This document shows positions 272 to 39,113 of a stretch of 48,530 nt of DNA, piece by piece. The notes beneath the pieces were generated by a model that saw nothing but the letters and a program-made list of their open reading frames with translations, was not told where the DNA came from and searched no databases. Position 1 is the first letter of the stretch; the number at the start of each line of letters is the position of its first letter. The DNA comes from Spirogloea muscicola (taxonomy: Eukaryota; Streptophyta; Zygnematophyceae; Spirogloeales; Spirogloeaceae). The stretch is from positions 46,898 through 95,427 of the forward strand of contig WELB01000291.1 of assembly GCA_009602725.1 (NCBI GenBank), read 5' to 3'. Both the position numbers and the translations under genes were made by a program.

Positions 272-3200
272 ATGAAGGCCAAGAAGAAGAGGGGAGTTGA
301 GCCGGTGAGGGAGAGCCCGGCGCCTTGTGCGGCCCTTCTTCATGTCGTCCAGGTCACTCTGCGACGCACGTCGTGCATGCACAACATGCGAGCTTGTCCT
401 GGTAACGCACCTCCAGCAGCTCGGGGCCAGGAGCGGGGTCGCCTGTGTTGTGCTCCAGCGTCGCTTTCCCGCGCTATGCTCAGAGGCGAAGTCCTGCACT
501 GTGCTCTGGTCACCTTAAGCCCACAGAGCAAGTGAGAGGCCTATGACAAAGCAGCAACCACCTGCTCTGTATACTGACGGCCTTGTTGGTCTCCTTGCTG
601 GTGAAGCCTGCTAGATTGCGGGCAATCATAGACGAGATCACAAGCACACCTCTGGAGAAAATCGAGGTACCTCTGGCTGCCCTTCGGTTGGACAAAGAGA
701 AGGTATGCCATTCCTCTCAAAATTATGTGTATTCGTCCTTTTCAAAGAAGGGCTACCCTTGGCAAAGTAGGGGCCCCTTGTCAAAGCAGTACATATTATC
801 AATCGTGAGGCTCCTCGGTCGTGACCTCGTCCACTCTCCCTTGCAATTGGTAGAGTGGTGTGGTGCCTGGCAGCAGGGCCTCCTTGCGTGCTTGGTGTTG
901 GGTGCCTGGGTTTTGGAGTTGATGTTTAGGCCGATGTTGCTTTATCTATCGGAAGACCGATTGTTTGTACCTTTCAGAAAGAAGCACTCAATAAGCACTC
1001 AATCACCTGTCATAGAAAAGCACTTGCCATAGAATTAACTGCTATCATGGCAAATGAGAGAAGTAGGAACCCTCAAAGCTTGAGGGATGAGGAGATGAAG
1101 AATGCAGCAATCTGGCAGAGCTTGCTGACAAACCTTTTCCCCTGGTTCTCATGAATTGGCAGGGTGACTTCAACCATTGGATTGACTTACTGAATTATTT
1201 TGATGCGTTCTTTGAGGTTCATGTCAAGCCAAGGGCAGACCTGCATTCTGACAAAAGCCCTAGAGACACTGAGGTGCACAGAGTGGATGGTCCATTCCCA
1301 ACAGAAGCAGTCCTGCAGATACTGCGGGTGACCAGGCTCATCCTGGAGAATTGCGTCAACAAACACCTATACAATTCATGCGAGGTGAGAAGGAAATCTG
1401 GGGTCCAAGGTTGGGCAACGATGGAAGCCATGTACACCTTCCTTAGAAAGAGGTCACAATTGACATGGGGTTAAATACGTTCATCGAGGGGCTGTACACT
1501 CTCATCTACCATTGGCAAAGCTCCCACTTGGCGTCTCCGCTTTGCAATCTTCCTACCTTTGTGCTAGACCTATCTCCGAGGATCATGCATTGACATCAGC
1601 TGATATTGACTTTGGGTGGTGTGTTGCAGCATATGTCTTTGCTACTGGCATCCACAGATGTCAGAATTGTGCTAGGAGCGCTTGGGGTCTTAGCAGCCTT
1701 TGTGCGGAAACCATTTCACCCGAGCAGGAGCCTTAGGTGGTCTGGAGAGCCGGGTATCAATGCTCGTCTCTTCTGCCTCTCACAAGGCTGGGGAGGGAAG
1801 GATGAGGGAGTGGGGCTGGTTGCCTGCTCAGTCGAGGGAGCATGCAGTGCAGAGGTGCAGCAAAGAGCTTCTACCTTACACTTTGAGTTCTATTCGGAGG
1901 ATGGCAGCAGTATTGCTGAAGGGGCAAAGAGTAAGGCTGCTTCTGGTCGACAGGTCATTCACATGCCAGCTGTGCATGAGAACGTGCACACTGACTTGGA
2001 GCTTCTGGAGGAGCTGGTGGCAGCTCACCACGTTCCGGGGAAGCTAAGATTTGCTCTGCTGACGCAGCTGCGGTTTGCAAGGGCCTTCACGTCTTTGGGA
2101 AGCAGGCAGGACTATGTCCGGGTGCGGCTCTTGGCCTTCACGGTCTTACTGCAGTCCAATCCCGACCACCAGGATCTGACAACCTTCTTCGCAAATGAGC
2201 CAGAGTTTGCTGGCGAATTGGTGATGCTGGTGCGTCTGGAGAAAGTGGTGCCGGAGGACATCAGGTCACTTGCCTTGCGAGCCTTGGCAGCACAAGCGCA
2301 GGACCGCTCAAGGCTGTCCACAGTGCTGACGGCAATCTCTGCTGGTGGCCACCAGGAGATCTTGCCAAGCCTCATGCAGAGAGCCATCAGCTCAGTTGCG
2401 GCAGGTGACTCGGGGGGGTGCTCCGTCCCTTTTGTTGAGGCGTTGCTGGCGCTGGTGACGGCTCTAGTGTCCGGCTCCTCTGGATGTGCTGCTCTGAGGG
2501 AGGCCGGTCTTGTCCCCACCCTGCTACCTTTGCTCAAGGACCTCAACCCCTCCCACACACACATCGTCAGCTCTGCAGTCCACATCTTGGAAGCCTTCAT
2601 GGACTTCAGCAACTCGGCTTCATCGCTCTTCCGAGACATTGGGGGCCTTGATGATACCATTGAACGGCTGAAGGCGGAGCTCAGCGTAGTTGAGAGGATG
2701 ATTGCCGAGGCAGATGTGCACTCCATGGCTGAGCCCCAGGCTATGGATAGCGGCTCCTTGCCAGGCAGAGGCAAATTGCCTGTGGTGGAGGGCAGTGACG
2801 CGCCTGTGCAGGGCACAGCACCTTCTGCTGACGTCCTCGTGACTTCCTCACAGAGATTGCTTCTCAAGGCTTTGCTAAGGGCAATTGCTCTTGCACTGTA
2901 TACACCAGGTAGCAATGTGAGATTGCACGGCCCTGAGGATCATGCACTTCCAGCGTGCCTCAGCACAATATTCAGGCACGCAAAAGAATTTGGCGGTGGC
3001 GTTTTCTCTCTAGCTGCTTCCGTCATGAGTGACCTGATCCACCACGACCCAACCTGCTATCCTGCCCTTGACGCTGCAGGCCTGCCAAGGGCTTTCCTCA
3101 ATTCCCTTTCCGCAGGTATAATGGCAGACTGTACACACCTTCTCGCTGCATTCGAGCTCACTAATTGTCTTCCATGTCATGTGCTCGGACAACTGAGACC

Positions 3201-6200
3201 TACCTTGTCCAAGGTTCCTGATGTGCTTGCAGTCTGTGTCTGTCTGTGAGTATGTGGAAGCCTGTGCAATACCAGTATGCCTCTGTACTTTTACATTCTC
3301 AGAGTAGTGTAAGGTTGTGGTGGTCACAGTGTCCATATGGTCAAGAAGAAGTTGACTGTTTTCCATTGTTTCTCATTAGATTGCACATGTACCTTCTGTG
3401 CAGGTATAATGCCATCTGCAGAGGCAATCTGCTCTGTGCCAAACGCGCTCATTGCTCTCTGCTTGAACACCTCAGGGCTTCAAGACGTTCAGAATGCAGG
3501 TGCCTTGAAGTGCTTCGTTCCCGTCTTCACCAACAAGCAGTACATGCGGGCTTTGTCAGGAGAGACGCCCTCCGTCCTAGGTGCAGGACTGGAGGAGTTG
3601 ATGCGGCATGTGCCGAACCTAAGGCCGAGCGGCATTGATATGAGCCTGGACATCCTAATGACAATCTCAAGCATTGGTGGAGCAACGCCAGAGGAGCCAG
3701 AGGAGCTGCAGAGCTTAGATAGGCCGCCAATGTCAGCAGATCAGGAGCCAGGCGAAGGCACTAGGCTGCAGGGAGACATGAGTGTAGAGGATCCAAGGGC
3801 GCTGGCAGACCTGACTGATGCTGAAGGCATTGCTGTGCACAATGCTGAAGTTGGCACGTCCAGTTCTGAAACCCCTGTTCCGATGGAGACTGACCATGAG
3901 GAGAGGGGTGAGCAGGGCCACCATGGGACGGAGAGTGCAACTGATGGAAGCGCAGCTCCACTGGCTGGTCCGTCCTCTGCCACAGCTGCAGTCGTGACAC
4001 CTCAGCTGGATGGGGCAGAGCTTGAGAGCTTCCTGCTAGAAGCCATCAACAACGTCACACGACTCCTGGACTCCATGTTGGCCAACGCACACAGCAGTCG
4101 CCTATTCATTGAGCGGAGGGGCATCGAGGCACTTCTGAGTCTATACACATTGCCTGCCTTGCCGGTCAGCTTTGGAGGGTCGGCCACAGCTCACAGCATG
4201 TCTGTCACCCTCCGCGCGTTCTCACCACAGCACTCAAGTCAACTCGTGAAGGCTGTCTGTTTGAGAATGCGGCAGCAGCTAAGGTCAGCTACGGACCTCG
4301 CGACAATGACGTTAACAGCTGGCACATATTTCATCGACCTGGAGGCTTCGACTCGAGCGAAGCTGGCCAAGTCACTGGCAGCAGCAGAGTGCTTGCTTGC
4401 ATTGGCAGCTGTACTGGTGAGGAGTTCGCCAACCATGCTGACTGAGATGGGCAGTCATGATGTTGAAGTCTTGGGGCATGCTGGCCAGCTTCAGCGACAG
4501 ATCCAGTGGCAACTGGCCTTGGCATGCGACAGGAAGGAAGAGGCCAAGAAGGAAGAGGGGGAAGTTGCAGCTGCTGGGCTAGGAACTCCAAATGTATCAG
4601 CTGAAGGGGATGAGGAAGCTGGTGGGACGACTGCAGCAGTGCAGTTCGCGGAGTCCAGAGATGGAGGGTCGGCTGCAGGTGCAGGAGAGGACGGTGGTCA
4701 ATGGGCAATGGATGTGGACTTCCTGAACATGACTGACATTGATGGGGCCGGGGATGGGCTGGCCATTCGGCACAACAGGCAGATGGTCAGGCGTCGCCTC
4801 GATGAAGGGGTTGCAGCAGCAGTTGCCATCAATCATGGTGGTGGTCGACGGATAGCTCGAGTGTCCCGCCATGTGGACGCAACACAGGGCGACCTAGAAG
4901 CAAGCACTGCTCCTCTGCAGAGTGAGCTGGGCAAAGGCAAGCCACAAGAGGTTGTGCAGGTGGATATGCTAGGCCGGCTGGTTGGTGCTGCACGACTCCT
5001 GTTTGTAGCACTTAGTAAAGCAATGATCGTACCGTCTCGACGTCGGTGAGCCACCTATACTGGATTGTGGATCTTGCATGCTACAAGTGGGATGCACATG
5101 ACTGTGTAGCTAACGTCATTGCTAGTCCAGTAGTTGCTCACATGGCCGTCACTTTCGTTATCACAAGCTGGTGTCTTTCTATCAGCAAGATACCTGCATT
5201 CATGTTTCTTGCGTACGCTGGAAATCTCACCTTTCTTCACTAGTTTCTGTGCTATCTTGCAGAGAGGACATTGTTTCCTTGAGCCAGCCAGCTAAAGCAA
5301 TGGCAGTTGCTCTTGCGAAGTTGCTGCAAGAAAGTTTAGAATTCCAGGACAACATGGCAGGTAACCCTGCTAAGCAGTGCAAGTGCGGCATTGGAGTGGG
5401 AACCTGGTTACTGGTCATTTATCAATGTTGATATTTCATATTTCTTGCAAGTAGTAGACAAGCATCTGTTTCAAGAATGCGGTGGAGGAGTCAGGACGTG
5501 CATAGATTTTGCTTCCACTTAGCCATGCACTGCAGTGTTCACGCCCGGCTGGTTTGATGTAGATCAGCCAGGTGTCGTCCTCATTTGCAGGTCATAAGTG
5601 AATCTAGAATTGAAGTAAACAGTACTCTGAGCACTTGCTTGCTCAACAGGCGGGCAGCTACCAGACACTTCTGTCAAGTGTCACTACATTGGGAGAGTTG
5701 TGGATGACATCACGGCAGTCTTATTCGATAACAGGCGCAGGTTGTGCAATACCGCCATGCTTGGAGCTCTCTATGGCCATGGTGCTGTGAAGCTGCTGCT
5801 CAACCTCTTCCGAGCTACCAGCCAACTGCTGTGGAACTATGGTACTCTGCTTGCACAACAGCTCAGCTGGCAGACTGCAGAAATTCATAAGCTGTGACGT
5901 GATGTAGCAGTATGCTTAGTCGCTGTACAAGTGAGCATGGTGTGCTATAGCTAACTCATGATATCACACTGTGGCAGGTGGAGGCAGCAATTTGGCCCCA
6001 GTTGGACATGATGGAACAAATTCACGTCCTCCATGGCTGATTGACGGGCTTCGCAGCTTTGCCAGACTCTTTGAGCAATTGGTGGCGTCTACCCTTGTCT
6101 TGGGACAACCAGCTTCAGCTGCCTTGTTGGTGCAGCCCCTGCCAGGATCAACCATGACGCTGCCCAAGGATCCAGAGGCTGTCATGCTCATGTTGCAGGT

Positions 6201-9200
6201 TTGTACAGACTGCAGATATGGTTATCAAAATACTTGCAAAGTCTCTGTGCATCACGTGATAGTACCCTTTTGAATTTTACGGTCTGGACACTCTTGTTCT
6301 AGATATTGAGTTTGATTCTCAAGTAATCTAAATGTTTTAGCTATTGAAGCTTCCAACCATCTGAGCTGACTGTGTCGTCTAAGCAAGCCAGTCGATGACA
6401 TTGTGTAGGTGGACCATAAAACCTTAGAGTCGTGTGTTGTGTGGGCAGGTGGAGATCCTGGAGGCTGTGATGCCCATGTGGACGCACCCCTTCTTCCACA
6501 ACTGCCCTCCCAGTCTGGTGGAGTCTGTGGTAGCAATCATTACGCACGTCTACCGAGGCTCAGCAGAGGGCAGTGTCACCAAGAGTGGCAGTACCCCTGG
6601 CGGATTCCACATTGCTCGGGCGCCCATCGTTCCTCCAAACGAGGCTTCCATCTCAGTGATTGTAGAGATGGGCTTCTCACGAGAAAGAGCTGAGGAAGCC
6701 CTGCGAAGAGTTGGGACCAACAGTGTCGAGATGGCCATGGAGTGGTTATTCTCCCATCCAGCAGGGGATGCAGATAGTGCCGGCGGCGCGGCAGCTAGGG
6801 TAGCCGAAGATGACGAGCTTGCGCAAGCCCTAGCCATGTCAATGGGCACTGTGGACGAGCCGCAAAAGGAGAAGGTGGGCAGCACAGGCAGGGACCAGAA
6901 TGCCGAGCAAGGGAAGAGCGATGAGGCGGCAGACTTAGCTGCAGGCGGTCTGCCCAAAGGCCCTGGGACTGAAGATATGGTGGCAATAGTAATAAACATT
7001 CTGAGGGAGTCAGACACACTCGCTTACCCCCTGACGGATTTGCTAGTTACTATGGCAGCCCGGAAAGACAGGGAGGACAAGAAATCCATCATTGGCTGCC
7101 TGTTGAGGAGGCTACAGGACTGCAAGGTGCCCACAGCGAGCTCCGAGGCAGCGGCAATTGCACACCTGCTGGCGCTCTTGCTCAGCGAGGATGGCACACT
7201 GAGGGAAGTTGCAGCGCAAGCTGGCCTCGCAGGGGTGGTCCTTGACCTCGTGGAACAATATGTGGAGCAGGGCCAATTGGCGTCGGGCTGCACTGCTACG
7301 GTCTTAAAGTGGATCTCCTCCCTGCTACTGGTCATCGATACGATGCAGCAGTTCAAATTGAATCTGCCAGAGTCGCCAGCGCCTACTGCTCAGCCATCAG
7401 AAGCTCCTCAGGCATTGCCGGGCAAGGAGGCAGGGCCCTCTATGCCTGCAAATAATGCAGGGGACAAGGTGCCGTTTGCGAACGTCCTTGGCCAGCAGAC
7501 AGGGTACCTTACAGATGCGGAGCAGTGGAGAGCGATGGACATATGCTGCCGACTTCTCAAGGAGGACCTGCCAGGCTCTGTGACACAGGCTGTCCTCCAG
7601 GCATGTACTCGGCTCACCAAATCGCACGCTGTGGCAGTGAAGTTCTTGGAGAGCGGAGGATTGACTGCATTGCTAGCGCTGCCCACCTTCAGTCTCTTCC
7701 CTGGCTTCGAGACGGTGGCATCAGCTGTGGTCAGGCACCTGCTGGAGGACCCATTGACGTTGCAGGTTGCTATGGAGGCCGAAATTCGGCACACACTGAC
7801 ATCTACGCTGGCAAGGCAGAATGGTCGCATTCCACTGAGGATGTTCCTGACGGTGATGGCTCCTGTCATTGCAAGAGAACCGTCCGTCTTCATGCAGGCA
7901 GCGATGGCCGTCTGCCAAGTGGAGGTTGTTGGTGGAAGGCCGACAGTGGTGCTGGTTGCACCGAAAGGAGAGAAGGAGAAGGACAAGGAGCGAGAGAAGG
8001 ACAAGGAGAAGCCGAAGGGAAGGGAAAGAGAGAAGGGCTTGCAGGGGAGCGGTGAGGGGACTGCATCCATGGTGGCGAGCGACGAGAGGACTGCAAGGGC
8101 CAAGGAACAAGGTGAAGCCACCAGCTCGCAGCAACCGAGCAAGCAGCCTAGGAGCCACAGGAGGGTGCCACACACCTTCTTGCAGGTTGTGGATCAGCTG
8201 TTGGGGGCCATCAAGCAGTCGCCTCTGCCAAGCATAGGCGGGCAGCCAGAGCTGAGTAACCTGCCAGAGGAAGTAGCAACAGCCATGGAAGTGGACGAGG
8301 TGTGCACCACTGCACCTGCCAGCTTGGGGAAGGGCAAAGGCATAAGCAAGGTAGGGCTGGGTATTGGAGGAGAAGAGGACAAGCGAGCCCTGCCGAAAGT
8401 TGTCTTCATTCTGAAGCTGCTGACTGAGGTCCTGCTGCTCTACTCCGCTGCGGCTCAGGTTGTGCTGAGAAGGGATACAGAAAGCTGCCAAGCAGGAAAG
8501 CAGGGGCTCATAAACCATGTCCTCCACAGCCTTGTGATAGCCGAGCCCAAGGACGAGGGGGAGGAGAAGTCGAACCAGGCGGAGAAGGTGGCGGAGAAGG
8601 CCCAATACTTCATCCTGTCGCTCTGTGCCAGGTCAGGCGAGGGGCGACGTCGGGTGATAGCTGAGATCGTGAAAGCACTCATTGAGGAGGTGCAAGTTGT
8701 GCAGCAGATGCGGGGCAGCGGCTGCCTGGTCTCAAATCGCAAGCTACTGGCCCTCATTGACCTGACGCACCGGCTCCTCCCAGTCCACGCAACAGCTCTT
8801 GGTGCCAGTCAAGGCAACCTATTCGCAGCAGACATGGCAAAGACTATGACGGAAGCTGGGATGGTGCCTGCCCTAACAGGCATTCTGCAGGTCTTGGACT
8901 TGGATCATCCGCACGTGCTGAAGCTTCTCAACAACCTCCTGAGGTCCCTGGAGGCACTCACACGTGTCCAGCTCGCAGAGCCCTTGCATGTCCTGGGTAG
9001 GACGTCTGCTGCACCTGCTCCTGCCGCTGAGTTGCCGGCGGAGGCAGATAATGTGGCTGGAGCCAGCAACCTGGAAGCAGGTCCCAGCCAGAGGGCCGAG
9101 GGATCTCAACCATCAGCTGATGATGTGATGCAAGAAGGAGGAGGGCAGGCCGACATTTGGCAAGGAGGTGGCCCAGAAAGTGCAGGGCAGGATCACCATG

Positions 9201-12200
9201 AGGAGGGCGTGGAGTCCCTGCGAGAAGCAGAAGCAGATGTGGGAAGTGAAAGAGCACGCGAGAGGGAAAGGGAGGAGCTCCTGCGGGAGGAGTACATGCT
9301 GCAGCAACAGGCCAGTGCTGAGGAAGCGGAGGAGGAGATGTTGCGAGAGGCAGCTGAAGACGCGACAGATCTGGAGAATGTTGCTGTTTCCATGACTTTC
9401 AGGATGGAGCATGACCTTGGCAGGGAGGAGGAGGATGATGAGGACGATATGGACGGTGAAGGGGGTGGAGAGGACCACGATGACGAAGATGACGAAGAGG
9501 ATGATGATGATGAAGACGACGATGAGGACGAGGAAGACGAGGAGGGGGAGGATGTGGAGGTATGTGCCTCTTTTTGGTCACATTGGCATACTTGCCATGA
9601 ACAAACAACACATACATACCTCTTCTGTGTGGCTGGCTTGCTCAAATCTCGCCCTTTGCCATGTTCTTCCAGGGAGAGGAAGGTATTCCTGGCTCTCCAC
9701 CTGAGACGGACGGGGAGGATCACGACGACAACCATGGTTTGGATGACTACGAGAACGACATTGTAGAGGAAGAAGAGGAGGATGCAGAGGAGGAAGAAGA
9801 GGAGGAGGAAGAAGAGGAGGAGGTGGAAGGTGAGGGCGAAGAGGGGGTGCAGGGTGGAGAGAACTTGGGAGGTGAGCGCGTCATTGAGGTAAGATGGAGG
9901 GATGGCTTGACGGGCGTCAACCATGTGCAGCTGCTGGGGCAAGCTGCAGCAGGTGGCCTTCTCGACATCCCAGGCATGGCCACTGGCGCCGCCTTTGAGA
10001 ACATCAATGACATCTTCAGCAACCTTGTTCGGTCAGAGAGGCGGAGGCAGAGCGGTTACCGTGCTTTCTCGGGCCCAGCAGGCGCAGCCAGTGGAGCTGG
10101 GGCTGTCGGCAGCGGAGACGCTGGTGACAGAGCCAGTGGCGAGAGAAGTGCCTTCCCTCACCCCCTCCTTGCCCGACCACGCGTCTCTCTCAACAGAGGA
10201 GGTAATGAGGCCGCGGCAAATCAATGGGCTGCCCTGGCAACGGCAGACCGGGAGTCTTTGCTGGCCGGTGGAGGGCCATCACACGGACTTGGGGACATAG
10301 CACACTTCTTACTATACGAGGGGGGAGGTTTGGCAGTCCCCAACGGCACCGGGGACCGCGGTGCTGAGCTTGCAGAGCAGATGAGAGCAGCAGCAGATGG
10401 AGATGGCTTGCTTTTCCCCAATGACAGGGCTGGCGGTGAGCTCCACTCGCTTGCTGACTTCTCATTGTTGGAGCCGTCCTCCTTTGTTGTTGGCGGCAAT
10501 GGCAGCAGACAGGCCCACGCGCTGTACCGCCACCACCACCACCACCGCAGCCACAGAGCAGATGTGCCTGGTGGAAGGCTTACGTGTTGGACGGATGATG
10601 GGCAGCCCTGGCGAGACGGCCAATTAGCTGCGCGTATGGCTCAAGCTATTGAGGAACAATTTGTGGACCGGATGACCCCACAAACAGCTGCTCATGCCTC
10701 AACACAGCCAACCACTGGCCCACCTGATGCCGCTGTCACGCATGACGTTGAGCGCGAGGTCGCGACTGAGGTCACCGCAGCCACAAGCACCGGGCACTTG
10801 CGTGAGCCAGTACAAGAATCACCAATACTGGTAGAAAGACCTGTGGGAGGAAGCCCTGCTGGATCTGATGTTCAGATGGGAGGAGGACTTGGTGCTGCAA
10901 GCCAGGACAGTGGTGGTAGCGCAGCAACTGTGGGCGAGAGCCTTCGAAGTTTGGAGGTGGAGATTGGGAGCGCTGACGGTGACCCAGGACAAGCTGTGGG
11001 CCAGGAAGATGCTGTCCCTGGCAGCTCCTCTAGTGCTTCGGCCATGCCAATGGAAGAGGTCTCACCTCCTACAGGCTTGCAACCTGTTCCTGAGCAGAGC
11101 CAGCCTGTTCAACAAGCAACAGTAACAACAAGCATACTGGAGGGTCAGGCATCGAGGCCCCCAGCAGATAGTAATGCCGAGGGTGGTGGCACTTCCACAG
11201 AGCCAGCTCATATGGCAGCCAGTGTTGCAAGAGAGGCCAGCACTGCAGCCAGTGCTCCAGCTGACGAGCCAGAGATGACAAATGCTACCGCCGATGGTAC
11301 TCAGGTCTCTGTACGAGGAGGTGGCATAGATCCCACTTTTCTTGAGGCCCTTCCAGAGCAGCTCAGGGCCGAGGTGTTAGCATCCTCCAGCACAGCGACT
11401 AGGAATGTTGCTGCCGCCGTCGCAGGCATTGCTGGGGCCTCAGAAGGGCTTCCACCACGCGAGGAGGGTGAGGAGGAGCTTGATCCAGAATTCTTGGCTG
11501 CTCTACCACCAGATATCCAGGCAGAGGTATTGGCGCAGCAGAGAGCTAGGCGGTTGATGCGAGCACATGCTGCTGCGGTGGAGGGACAGCCAGTGGACAT
11601 GGACTCTGCGTCCATCATTGCAACTTTTCCTGCTGAGCTTCGGGAGGAGGTATGGTGGTTCACCTAATTGCATGTCTTTTGGCGAGCAGACCAACCTGCA
11701 GAAGTGAAATGGACATGCTAGTGCAGGTAAAGCTCACTGTGTTAGATATATTAGTTACAATATTGTGTATGTGTTTGCAAAGGCCTCACTGAAGCACTTA
11801 AAGATATTTGATCGTGTCTGTTTTACCTGTATTCTATTTGCAGGTCCTGCTGACCTCCTCCGAAGCGGTGCTTGCGGCCTTACCACCCGCTTTGCTTGCA
11901 GAGGCTCAGTTGTTGAGAGAGAGGGCCATGAGCCAGTATCAGAGGCAAGGCCTTTTCAGGCGGCAAGCCATCTCCCAACATCACAATCGCCTCCAGTCAC
12001 GTGCTCTGGAGACTGCAGGGGTGGTCGCTGCAAGTTCTGATAGTGACATTCTCACTGCAAGATCACGGGGAGCCTATCCTCAGTTGGGCTTGGGAATGAA
12101 GGGAGGGGGTAGATTGAAGGAGATAGAGGGCCCTCCGCTATTGGAAAGGTCCGCAATTGAAGCGCTTATTCGACTGCTGCGACTTGCTCAGGTCAGGAAC

Positions 12201-32860: not shown

Positions 32861-33640
32861 TCGCTGTGAGCCGGCCGGAAGACGCGAAAATCACGAGACC
32901 ACTCTCCGGGACTTCTTCTGCAAAGTGGCCAGACAGAGAGAAGGCGTGTGGTGCGCATGGAATAAGTGAAAAGGATGGCCAACTCAAGCCAATACATTGT
33001 TCAGGCAGATGCTAGTGCACACTCAGGAAAGACCAGAGAGCGGAACACCGTCCCTAGCATCTCCCCTGGAAGGGGGCCAGCGTAAGAGCAAGCGACCAAG
33101 CCCCGAGCGGCGCGGTGAGCGAGGTCGTGCGTTAGAGCGGCCTCACCCAGTGGTCACAAGGGGGGGCCCCCGCTTTAGACGACGGACTTGATCACGCGCA
33201 GGGGGGGGCGGAGGTGGCGGACGATTGAAAGAAAGTGCTCGCCCATTGAGGATACGGGCTGAAAAAGCCAGCCCAAAAAAGAATGAACAGAGTCCGAGAA
33301 GGGGGCCAGGGGAAGCGCTAAGAGAAACAAGCACACAAAGAAAAAAAGCAGCTACGGATCACTCAGTAACCCCTGCTAAGCAGCCTCAGATCAGAGATGC
33401 TAGGCTCCTGGAAGTGGGTCCCCTGGACGATTCCCCGCTTGGCTGCGCGGCTGGGGCGAAAATGCGTGTATATTAAGAGATGGGGAGGCCATGTGTGGCC
33501 AAGTACAAAGGCAAGCACATTGGACAAATGTACGTCACCTGCTGCTAAGCTGACCCGCTCAGTAACCACGAGTCAGCACATAGAGGTCGCTAGCTGACGC
33601 TCGAATACCGGACGGCAATTGACTAGCTCTTGTGCCAGCA
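32861..33640. repeat. Interspersed repeat cluster (copy 3)
   Basis: Lies in minus orientation relative to copy 1 and the cluster at 44040. The block at 33475-33600, containing the core TGACCCG-N11-CGAGTCA at 33551-33575, is nearly identical to the reverse complement of 44045-44170. The block at 33250-33380 matches the reverse complement of 18760-18900, and AAGCCAATACATTGTTCAGGC near 32988 matches copy 1 and 48390. No intact open frame is seen. Confidence 0.8.
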
Positions 33641-34006
33641 GCTAAGGCTCGACCAGCTTTCTGATGCAGAGCATACGCCTGAGCTCGTTGCAGACAGGTT
33701 GACACTCGACGTCGCAGAAATGACAGATAGGCTGCCGGCATACCCATCTGGGCTGGGAGCATATCCTCGCGTCGTGCATATCCCAGACTCGCTATGTTCT
33801 CGAGTAGGGTATGGAAGCGAGGACCCAAGCAGCCGAAAGTGTCGATTGCGGCCGGGAGGAGGTGGTCACTGCGGGGGTAGTCTGAGTAGTGTCGGGCGAG
33901 GGGAGCCTCGGCCATCCCGCTTGCCCGCCCCGCCGGCCCAAGGCCTGGCCTCGCTGCCTCGCCGCGCCGGCAAGCGGCACACGGCCTCCAGCGCGCGCCC
34001 TGAGAA

Positions 34007-34042
<36 letters not shown>

Positions 34043-34184
34043 AGCCGCCGTCTGTACTGGTCGCCCCCAGCCTACCGGGCTGCCGTGAGCAGCCGGCGGC
34101 GGCCCCGAGCCGGCGGCTGCTCTCCGAGAATCCGGGCGGTGCTGCGCCGGCTGCTCGCTGCCGCCGTCGCGCGGACAGGCCACG
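33641..34184 (+). promoter_or_regulatory. 5' region of the NAC-pseudokinase gene
   Basis: GC content rises steeply towards the ATG at 34185, as at other genes in the window. The segment includes the GCC tract at 34008-34043 and is presumably promoter and 5' UTR. No defined element is recognised. Confidence 0.35.
34008..34043. repeat. (GCC)n triplet tract
   Basis: About 11 near-perfect GCC units lie 140 bp upstream of the proposed start codon of the NAC gene, probably in its 5' UTR or promoter. Confidence 0.9.
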
Positions 34185-37100
34185 ATGTGGAGCGGCCTGG
34201 GCCAGGGCGTGAGCGCCAAGCAGGAATACCCTGGCGCCGTCGCCATCCCGGGCGCCACGCATGACTATGCCAAGGGCGAGCGCGTGGCCACCGTGGCCTC
34301 CATGCTCGGCGTGTCGCTGGATGACGACTGCGCCCAGGGCATGACCGTGGATGACACTGCAGACCCTCCTCAAGACGACGACAGGCCAGGTGCTGCATCT
34401 CATCCTCAGAAGCTAGCGCTCAGCTTGGCTGACTGACTTGACGTGCGCTCCTGGCTGGCTCAAAGCTGGCCGCGAATGGTGCATGCCTCGGCCTGGTTCT
34501 GAGACGCTACATTGCACCACAGCATGTTCAAGACAGTCATAGCAAACACCATGTCTGCAGCTTTCCACCACTGCTAAACGACCTTTGCCCTTTGATATCA
34601 CACAGAACCGCGCATGGGCATAGTAGAGAATTGGATGGATTTCCCAGGTGCGTTTCTGCACTTGCTAAGGGGCCATACACCGAGTTGCAAAGATAGGCCC
34701 GGGTCTTCAGTTTTCCCCTTCACTGCAGTACTTTGGCGCTGTGCTCCACACTTTCTCGTATTTCAACAGCTTGGACGGCTTGCCTGCTACATCACAATAC
34801 AAGAGGGACTGGCAAGGCTGTACTTTGCTTCAGTCGGCAGGCTGCTGTCTATTGTGCTTCCTTGTGCTGCCTTGCCAGGTGTCTAACACGCTGCTATATT
34901 GCAGAGATGGGCATCGGTACAGATTTCGGCCAGGAGTTTGTGAACGGCAGTGGACCCCTCCAGACTCCCTTTGAACATCGCCAGGGAGGGTCGTTCATGG
35001 AACCATGCCTTACAGAGCAAGGAAGTGGCCTTGGGTTTGGGCAGACACTGCCGTCGCCTCTCCAGGTATACTCGGCCTCATCATTGGTCTCTGATATTGG
35101 TAGATTGATGAACTATATACAGCACCACACGGGCAGATTGACAGCAAGGGAATTGACAGCTCTGGAGTTTTCAGTTGATAGAAATGTAGGGTAGAGATGT
35201 CCATACTTCGATACTGGATGATTGAGTTCTGGAGGAAGACCCTGACCGTTTAGTTAACGCGCAAGTCCTGCTTGTGGCTGATGATATATTGAGACAATTG
35301 CTATGCCAACATGTGCAGAACCCCACTAACCCAGTGAGCTTTGGCAACCACCTGGAGCTGCCATTCTTGACGTACATGGCGCGTACAGAGAATCAGATCG
35401 CGGCTCAGCGTCAGCTGCTCGACTTGGCATGGTGCAAAGCCCGGCACTGCTGCTTTTTGCACGTCTGAATCTTTTGCACATTCTTTTGACTGTTACATGT
35501 GTTGGTTGTGCTGCTAAGAAGAAGGTCTCTCCAAGACAGTTGCCCTATTGACTGTAGTCCACTGTGTTTGCTGACAGCAAGGAGCGTGATGAGGCTCTTT
35601 CGCACGCCAAGGCTGCACTCATGAAGGCCGAGAGACTGGAGGCCTTGCTGATGGCTCAGGCTGGGGATCCTAGCAAGATGCTGGCCAATGTGAGCCCGCA
35701 TCTTGATGCATTCTTGAGTGACCTTTATATCAGGATCAACAGATTTGTCAACTTGCCAGGTGACTATTCAGTGTCCTTGTATTTCATATTCTTATGATGC
35801 TGGAGCTGTGTTGCTACCTCTCTGCAGGCAGCATTGCCTAAGGGCATCCGCTTTACCCCAACAGAGCATGAAGTATTTGAGTGGCTGTGGCGTAAGATTG
35901 AGGGCAAGCAGGCAGGTGCCAATGAGGCAGAGTTAAATCAGTACCTCGCATATCAACTTCGCAAGATTTCAGACCCTGATGGTCTCATCCCTCAAGTGGA
36001 TCTGCTTGCAAAACCTCGTCCGTGGCTCCTCCCAGGTATGTGTTGGGCAGGTTCTCCTTCTACTCATGAATGATCTTGGCTATAATATCAATCAGGAAGC
36101 AAGCACCGAAGCTCATCAAAAGCATAAGCAACGATGAGGTCAGAGCTGACTTGCAGTCACTTGCATTGTCTCTTTGATGCAGGATTGTTCGTAGCACCAG
36201 TGGATAAGGGGATGCTGGGATTGGTGGGCTACTTTTTTGTACGGCCGCAGTATAGGACTGGTGAAAAGCGCAGGCGACGAGAGTGTGCGCTGGGCCTTGG
36301 TGACACCAAGCCTCCGTGCTGGAAGGAGAGTTGCCAGGCGACCAACTTCAATGAGCTCCTGGTGCACTAGCTGCCCCCTCTGAGGTTTCGTCGTGGGCTG
36401 AGTGTGCAGGCTTAGATAACCAATCTTATAAAGTACATCGTCTTGCTGGGAGGTTGTCCTGCTTCACACCTGGTCGTAGACTTGGACAGTCCCAGCACTG
36501 GTTCACTCGAGCATGCTTTGTAGGCTTTGCAAGGGACTTCGTTTGGCAAGGGACTTCGTTTGGCAAGGGACTTTCTCAATGGTCACCGTGTTGGTTGGAG
36601 CTTCCTCTGCAGCCCATCTATGGTACGAGGCCCGAACGGCGCATGTTTCGCTTCAAGCAGCCAGGGGCAAGGGAGGGCCCTGCCGAGGCCAAGGAGAAGT
36701 GGAAGATGTACGAGTACACGCTCAAATCGGACGTGGAGATGCTGGAGGATGAACGAAGTGGCCGCAACGCGTGGGTGATCTGCAAGGTTGTGAGGGAGGA
36801 TGTGGAGGACATGAGCCTAGTGGAGCGGCAGGGTGTGACCAATGGCAACGACGGCGGCCAGGGCTCCGGCTCAGGCTCCCCAGGTGCAAGCCATGGGGGT
36901 AATCCGTACTCTGGTGGGGGCACCTCGCATGGCAATCTTGGTGGAGGAGGCCATGGCCATGGAGGCTATGACGGCGGCAATGGTGGTGGCAGCAGCAGCG
37001 GTGGCGGCAGAGGGTCGTCGCCGTCGCCGTCCAGAGGCTCCTACTCGGGCAACTACCAGTCGCTGCAGCTGCAGGCTGGGCCGTCAATCACAGTACCGAA

Positions 37101-39113
37101 GGCTGGCATACTCACTGCTACCGGTGCGAGCAGCAAAGGCAAGGGGGTCATGGGTGTCACGGTCCTGGATGCTGTGGTTGAGGACTTCTTTGTTCGGCAG
37201 CTCGCTGACAGGGAGCGCCGAGAGAGGCAGCTTGTGGAGGGCATTCGCATTGGCCAGACTGCGCCTGTGGAGGAGGAGGACGAAGTGGAGGGCGAGGAGG
37301 GCGTCGTGGAGGAGGATGAGGATGTAGTGGGCAACGTGGAGGTGGAGGCGGTTGCCAAGGTCGCAGCGGAGGTCGAGGGGGAGGTACAGGAGGAGGAGTC
37401 GCGGGTGTTGGAGATGAGGGGCAAGCCGACAGCTGTGCAGAGCTTGCCCGGCGTTGTGGCCGCTTTGGGCGAGAATATGCAGAGCAGCCTGCAGCTGGGT
37501 GGCGCGAGTGGCGCCGGCGGCCGAAGTGGCGTCAGCGGCAAAGCTGGCAAAGGGGGCCAAAGTGAGGCCAAGCGGAAGCTTGACGACTTGAGCAGTCCCA
37601 AGGAGAGCCCCCTCGCGGGCAGCCCTCCAGAGAAGAAGGGCCTTGAGAAGGACTTCATCACAGCCAACTTTTGTGGCTCTGACCTTGACCTTAGTCAGCT
37701 GAAGGCTCTTGGGAAGGCCGAGAATGTTCACCGCAACTTCTTGCCGACGGCGCAGATGGTGGAGGTGTGGAATGTCGAGCACAGCGATGTCAATCCTGTG
37801 GAGAGTGAGGGCCTGGCTGCGAAGATCAGTATGCTTGAGGAGCCCGCGGCTGAGGTGGATGAGGGCAAGGTGTTAGCACTTGCAGCAGAGCCGGCAGCGT
37901 CCGAGCAGGACACTTATGGGTGCCCTGTGTACTCCCTTGAGGATTTCAAGTTTGCAACATCTGACTTTGTCAACAAGATTCTGGAGGATGCTGCGTACGG
38001 CAATGAGTACCTTGGCACACTGAACGGCGGCAGTGTCATTGTTAAGAAGTATGGCACGCGGATAAGAGCACCTGGGGCCGCATCCAGTATCTCGCACCTG
38101 GCATCACTGAAGCACCCCACCATCATCCAACTCATGGGCTGCTGTCCTGCAGAGGGCTGCCTTGTCTATGAAGCCGTGCAGGGCGGCAGCCTTCAGGAGC
38201 ACCTCCGAGCCCTGGACTGGCAGACGCGGCTCACTATTGGGGCGGAGATTGCAGAGGCCTTGGCATACCTGCACTCGCGCTCTCCCACCGTGCTGCACCA
38301 AAAGCTGAAGCCTTCTACTGTACTCCTTGTGCACACGCCGAGGCAGCTGAGCATAAGTGGAGCCAAGCTCGTGCCCCAACAAGAGCAGCTGAGCAAGTTG
38401 GCTTTCATCGGCCCGATTGATCTTGCAGCAGTCACAGCACCAGCAGCCGGTCGGGATGGCATGCGGCTTGGAGGCCGAGGAGCTTCGGTGTCTCCTTATC
38501 TTGATCCTGACACACCCAGGACCGGCATTTTCGGCCCCGCCTCAGATGTCTACTCGTTTGGCATCATCCTCCTGCAGCTGCTGACCGGGTTGCCTCCAAC
38601 TGCTGCTCTGGGAGCCATCCAGCGGGCCGTCTCGGGAGGTTTGGAGAGCAAGAGCCTGGCAAGCGTGTTGGACACGGAGGGTGGAGAATGGCCAACGGCG
38701 CAGGCTTTCAAGGTTGCGGTGCTTGCACTTGAGTGCACGCACATGAACCCGTGCGACAGGCCTGATCTTGCTCTTCATGTCCTCCCAGTCCTGCAAGAGG
38801 TACACTTGGCCATGGCCCTTCGCAACATGATGCATATGCATTTGGTAATCTGTGTCAACAGGAAGCAATGCCGTTCCTGCACGTTGTGTTGATGTAGATA
38901 CAGCAGTAGATGCATTCCTTATTATCTCATGCTTCTTGAAAGCAGAGGGTACTTGGGAAGTTTAGAGAGCTTATATTTGGTCATGAAAGGGCTTGCAAAC
39001 TTCAGTTCCTGCAGCATTGCAATACCTGCTCCTGCAGCATTGCAATTCCTGCTTCTGAGCAACAATTCTTCTGCTTGCAGGTGAAGAAATGTGCGGCAGC
39101 ATCATGCGGATAG
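34185..39113 (+). CDS. NAC-domain protein fused to an RLCK/PUB-type pseudokinase (9 exons, ~1129 aa)
   Basis: Exons: 34185-34389, 34606-34647, 34905-35065, about 35235-35431, 35578-35759, 35832-36035, 36183-36361, 36613-38799, 39081-39113; phases agree. Residues 1-262 are unrecognised and partly helical. A NAC DNA-binding domain spans about 264-450: LPKGIRFTPTEHEVFEWLW (subdomain A), GYFFVRPQYRTGEKRRRR with a basic patch, CWKESC, then in exon 8 ERRMFRFKQ, EKWKMYEYTL and NAWVICKVV (subdomains D/E). A Gly/Ser-rich and then an acidic linker follow. A kinase-like domain spans about 829-1119 (YSLEDFKFATSDF ... SDVYSFGIILLQLLTGLPP ... NPCDRPDL), most like plant U-box/RLCK-IX kinases. The VAIK-type Lys is kept, but HRD reads HQK (952-954) and DFG reads GAK (973-975), so catalysis is unlikely. 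A nuclear regulator is inferred. Exons 1-4 and 9 are the least certain. Confidence 0.85.
36529..36574. repeat. 17-nt tandem repeat, ~2.7 copies, in an intron
   Basis: The unit GCAAGGGACTTCGTTTG repeats at 36529 and 36546, with a partial third copy at 36563. It lies in the intron before the large NAC/kinase exon. Confidence 0.9.
39006..39051. repeat. ~23-nt tandem duplication in the last intron of the NAC-pseudokinase gene
   Basis: TTCCTGCAGCATTGCAAT-type units occur back to back at about 39006-39028 and 39029-39051, shortly before the acceptor at 39080. Confidence 0.8.

Follow-up and report, generated by a model that had tools for sequence, protein, structure and literature searches.

The window, by which we mean the whole 48,530-nt stretch of Spirogloea muscicola DNA analysed here, raises the question of whether a NAC domain and a receptor-kinase-like domain are encoded in one protein and, if so, what such a protein might do. 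Splice ends read by hand, with the frames tested, gave a gene of nine exons on the + strand (34185–39113) that encodes a protein of 1079 amino acids (Table 1); its 5′ end (ATG 34185) and last exon were placed by conservation among the three genomic copies described below. The sequence-only reading held that NAC subdomains D/E and the kinase fold share one uninterrupted exon and that the earlier NAC subdomains lie, in matching phase, in the two exons before it. Both points were borne out: exon 8 is an open frame of 2187 nt, bounded by CTGCAG and GTACAC and contained in an 845-aa stop-to-stop frame (36355–38892), and exons 6 and 7 match it in phase. A Pfam search of the spliced protein, the check which that reading had proposed, returned NAM at aa 246–377 (38.5 bits against a cut-off of 27, rising to 46.1 bits for the excised NAC domain), PK_Tyr_Ser-Thr at aa 798–1059 (58.6 bits, cut-off 23.1) and Pkinase (55.3 bits, cut-off 31.7). 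The N-terminal region, whose final, charged stretch resembles a coiled region on inspection by eye, had no Pfam match over aa 1–211 and was found nowhere in the genome outside the three copies at E up to 0.001. A membrane-anchored NAC protein was rejected because the three most hydrophobic 19-residue windows of a simple scan (top mean 1.73) all fall inside the NAC or kinase parts. The frames and profile matches show that four parts are encoded by one predicted gene: the N-terminal region, the NAC domain, which is diverged, a linker that is Gly/Ser-rich and in part acidic, and a kinase domain of RLCK type that lacks its catalytic residues.

Table 1. Features of the NAC–kinase gene, in window coordinates.
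Feature	Position	Strand	Content
Exons 1–5	34185–34389, 34606–34647, 34905–35065, 35319–35431, 35578–35689	+	N-terminal region, aa 1–211 (about 211–213 aa)
Exon 6	35828–36035	+	First NAC subdomains, LPKGIRFTPTEHEVFEWL ... VDLLAKPRPWLLPG
Exon 7	36183–36361	+	NAC GYFF, basic KRRRRE, PCWKESCQATNF where GYWKATG is expected
Exon 8	36613–38799	+	NAC subdomains D/E, linker and predicted pseudokinase; single open frame, 729 codons
NAC subdomains D/E	36613–36801	+	WKMYEYTL 36700, WVICKVV 36772
Linker, aa 404–774	36802–37914	+	Gly/Ser-rich, then acidic, then mixed
Predicted pseudokinase, aa 775–1069	37915–38799	+	Starts YGCPVY 37915
Predicted pseudokinase motifs	38035, 38296, 38407, 38542, within 38755–38775	+	VIVKK, HQKLKPST, IGPIDLA, SDVYSFG and RPDL, respectively
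Exon 9	39081–39113	+	Final 10 codons and stop; acceptor AG kept in 3/3 copies

We searched the 153-Mb assembly (471 contigs) with the 729-aa translation of exon 8. Besides the window itself, two further loci, on contigs C82 and C57, matched all 729 residues (92% and 91% identity, respectively), and the NAC–kinase exon is therefore not a chance combination. Both have the same nine exons and phases as the window copy. Across the eight introns of the three copies the phases are identical, and all 24 intron starts are GT and all 24 ends AG; exons 1–5 agree in length and in splice ends, and exons 1–7 are unchanged in length. A 2-nt length difference in the last exon gives the C82 and C57 copies a different stop and different C-terminal residues. 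Because three copies have kept the NAC–kinase join, the gene is probably real. In the 40 kb around each copy, and counting matches of more than 250 columns, the surroundings match the window in order over 16.2–43.5 kb for C82 and 18.4–43.5 kb for C57, with interruptions (one of them directly 5′ of the gene) and, in C57, an additional small match in inverted orientation; beyond 43.5 kb there is no such in-order match. Other genes of this genome likewise occur in threes, which, together with the three copies described here, fits the recent whole-genome triplication reported for this species in the passages covered of PMC10487979.

The kinase part aligns with positions 8–251 of the 258 in the PK_Tyr_Ser-Thr profile, and its nearest solved sequences, among the best 60 of 588 matches, include the plant receptor kinases/RLCKs SYMRK, CERK1 and PBL2. 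Alignment with a kinase on contig C122 (locus L035) revealed that all three copies carry HQK in place of HRD, KPST or KPSS in place of KPAN, and GPI or GPV in place of DVG, with the VxK lysine, SDVYSFG and RPDL retained. Since HRD has become HQK and DFG is lost, the domain is a predicted pseudokinase of the plant receptor-kinase/RLCK type; the profile match above cut-off and the loss of both aspartates in every copy agree with the class that the sequence-only reading had assigned, and on the same residues we rejected a predicted active kinase. The best-scoring kinases outside the three copies, among the 61 of 273 candidates scored, were those on C266 and C122, the latter of the U-box (PUB/RLCK) type; they are 38% identical to the fused kinase, or 31–33% under other alignment settings. 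At L035 (4276–5569) an apparently active kinase frame is followed by a U-box match (46.1 bits) in a frame just downstream, and the two probably belong to one gene. Unlike this kinase, the fused kinase has neither HRD nor DVG, and its N-lobe has no intron, whereas the N-lobe frame of L035 is interrupted, apparently by one; the missing intron would fit a processed-copy origin or intron loss. Nor does the fused protein have a U-box (no Pfam match in the 1079 aa at E up to 0.1), and PUB membership was rejected for this reason.

The NAC part, which begins LPKGIRF and finishes WVICKVV, resembles the NAC (NAM) family (PF02365) in its subdomain order, LPxGxRF start, W.MYEY motif, WVICKVV end and score above cut-off; it differs in having no WKATG, a region of about 211–213 aa in front and the predicted pseudokinase behind. 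The match to NAM is modest, and the domain is diverged. A list of 38 NAM matches compiled exon by exon across the genome does not contain the NAC exons of the window, and exon 8 by itself has no hit to NAM at E up to 1; the cut-off is passed only when the exons are spliced. (Of those 38 matches, 19, all weak, sit on contigs C21, C264, C348 and C9, which suggests that diverged NAC-like genes have multiplied locally there.) In the PDB, the NAC part had eight weak matches (E up to 1), four to NAC proteins (best E 0.015) and four to ribosomal proteins. Judged from its pairwise alignment with 3swm, itself weak (E 0.14), the NAC part would retain an Arg-Glu pair that we take to correspond to R19/E26 of the ANAC019 dimer interface. 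The motif GYWKATGKD is present in all eight of the loci L001–L008, which represent the five NAC genes ranked highest among the 38 NAM matches, and its position is occupied by PCWKESCQATNF in 3/3 fusion copies. We take WKATG to be a DNA contact in NAC proteins. Because PCWKESCQATNF replaces the motif of the five top-scoring NAC genes, direct DNA binding by this predicted NAC domain is doubtful; the loss is no proof that binding has gone, since KRRRRE and Trp-Lys remain.

These observations raise the possibility, to which we give a probability of about 0.4, that the gene encodes a regulator that is soluble and nuclear. Its NAC part would serve mainly for dimerisation or docking (LPxGxRF..E being kept and WKATG lost), and its pseudokinase would let an active kinase, or that kinase's phosphorylated partners, dock. 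Such a protein would neither phosphorylate nor bind DNA on its own. It could convey kinase signals to NAC dimers, or keep canonical NAC partners bound and unavailable; its dimerisation, nuclear location, partners and effect on transcription are putative. The sequence-only reading had proposed a working DNA-binding transcription factor whose activity is controlled through the pseudokinase when this binds a ligand or phosphate. We regard this as possible but rather unlikely: a NAM score above cut-off, the retained basic and Trp-Lys residues, the strongest constraint in the protein (on the NAC part; see below) and an acidic linker stretch that could be an activation region are all in its favour, but PCWKESCQATNF stands where GYWKATGKD would be expected.

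A second, related NAC triplet, on contigs C49, C48 and C80, bears on the origin of the fusion. These sister genes have PCWKVCQTTLYH in place of GYWKATGKD and, over the three NAC exons, are 30–32% (first), 61% (second) and 68% (third) identical to the fusion; one of them (L033, exons joined by eye) has no NAM match in Pfam. No kinase match was found at E up to 1 in the 8.0–8.5 kb around each, including about 4 kb downstream. Because the sister triplet shows no kinase, the kinase would have been either gained after, or lost from, a shared diverged NAC gene, and gain appears the simpler on this unrooted comparison. Inspection by eye of the 38 NAM matches and of the 125 kinase candidates scored (of 772) revealed no further NAM entry with a kinase entry in its vicinity; the window's own kinase is absent from this genome-wide kinase list, which is hence incomplete. 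As a tentative scenario, which may well prove wrong, a NAC lineage in a streptophyte alga would have gained a pseudokinase from U-box-type RLCKs and would use it as an integral site at which kinase signalling can dock. A kinase pathway would then address the NAC dimer directly, whether or not that dimer binds DNA itself.

We compared the three copies for constraint. By the NG86 method, dN/dS in the three pairs was 0.04–0.06 for the NAC part, 0.26–0.32 for the linker, 0.21–0.25 for the kinase part and 0.10–0.23 for the N-terminal region, and thus below 0.35 for the NAC part, whole linker and kinase part in every pair. The higher values of the kinase and linker relative to the NAC part, as well as the frame of the last exon, which differs among the copies, would be expected of a real but decaying gene, in which the fusion is under relaxed constraint and persists because the triplication is recent; yet exons 1–8 are intact in all three copies and dN/dS (NG86) is below 1 for every part, and we consider decay quite improbable. 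A gene that is retained as a docking regulator remains our preferred reading.

The same comparison bears on whether the locus instead holds two genes or transcripts, namely a NAC gene that ends in the linker and a kinase-like gene that starts at an in-frame start codon (ATG 37150, for example), in which case the frame would be continuous only incidentally. Six in-frame ATGs lie between the NAC part and the kinase (36811, 37150, 37414, 37477, 37756 and 37831), and the Gly-rich part of the linker has a dN/dS of 0.31–0.53 by NG86 and of about 0.8 by YN00 (values from two pairs). At residues 441–520 the variable sites (9/5/7 over the three codon positions) are not in excess at third positions, and this Gly/Ser-rich part without third-position bias is the weakest stretch for a one-gene reading of the sequence. 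Gly/Ser linkers are usually under low constraint. Against two genes, exon 8 has no stop or frame-changing gap in any copy; its only gap, of 3 nt and common to C82 and C57, amounts to two gap runs when counted per sequence, versus 44 in the eight introns. The linker as a whole is less variable than the introns (112 of 1109 versus 325 of 1603 columns, p=5e-13), as is its Gly-rich part at 36910–37149 (20 of 237 columns, p=4e-6), and variable sites over the whole linker are in excess at third positions (27/26/59, p=2e-5). Outside the Gly-rich part, the linker has an NG86 dN/dS of 0.15–0.36. We therefore judge two genes to be highly improbable, and a join error behind the NAC–kinase combination appears very unlikely from the frame and intron ends kept on three contigs, in keeping with the earlier claim that a wrong join could not account for it. 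Automatic gene predictions do produce false chimeras, but a prediction, frame or assembly artefact is barely conceivable here and was rejected, as three loci on three contigs, with DNA differences of 8–12% in introns and divergence at the level of the flanks, give the same gene with an intact frame and no stop or frameshift in the linker of any copy, which speaks against the local base error named in the sequence-only reading.

Among known fusions of a plant transcription factor and a kinase are those of the WRKY19/MEKK4 type, which carry TIR-NBS-LRR parts. They resemble the present gene in having a plant DNA-binding domain and a kinase domain in one protein, and differ in those additional parts and in belonging to another transcription-factor family. 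The sequence-only reading knew of no NAC protein with a kinase-like module, a statement that does not stand: a 2020 survey based on domain scans of predicted proteins from 160 species lists, in the passages covered, predicted NAC–kinase chimeras (PMC7147800), and as a kind the architecture is thus already in print as a prediction. Like the present gene, the survey's chimeras have NAC and protein kinase domains in one predicted protein; in contrast to it, they come from domain scans only, with no test of conservation or of catalytic residues in those passages (PMC7147800), whereas the present gene is kept in three copies and has no EF-hand match (Pfam, 1079-aa protein). What appears to be new is the pairing, in a streptophyte alga, of a diverged NAC domain with a dead RLCK-type kinase, backed by three copies; searches of an open-licence library brought up no title or abstract on a NAC-pseudokinase in algae. 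The NAC family grew in number at about the time when land plants arose (PMC11712027). If our reading is true, a receptor-type kinase module and a transcription-factor domain would have been united in one protein in an alga related to land plants. The fusion gene offers a compact, testable case, and it carries the warning that a NAM match does not amount to canonical DNA binding.

Other parts of the window drew our attention. Upstream of the gene, 33466–33877 recurs at 83% identity in L035 (7344–7753), with overlapping copies in L033 (70%) and, inverted, in L029; C82 and C57 align poorly there, and a mobile or repeated element probably adjoins the promoter. A CCG run at about 34008–34050, roughly 135 nt ahead of the proposed ATG, has similar matching runs in several other loci. 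At the start of the window, 1594–11664 (+) holds large open frames (4 of 7 scanned) with DUF908, DUF913, UBA and UBM matches and no HECT domain; these frames are predicted to be pieces of a giant ubiquitin-ligase gene, presumably UPL1/HUWE1-like.
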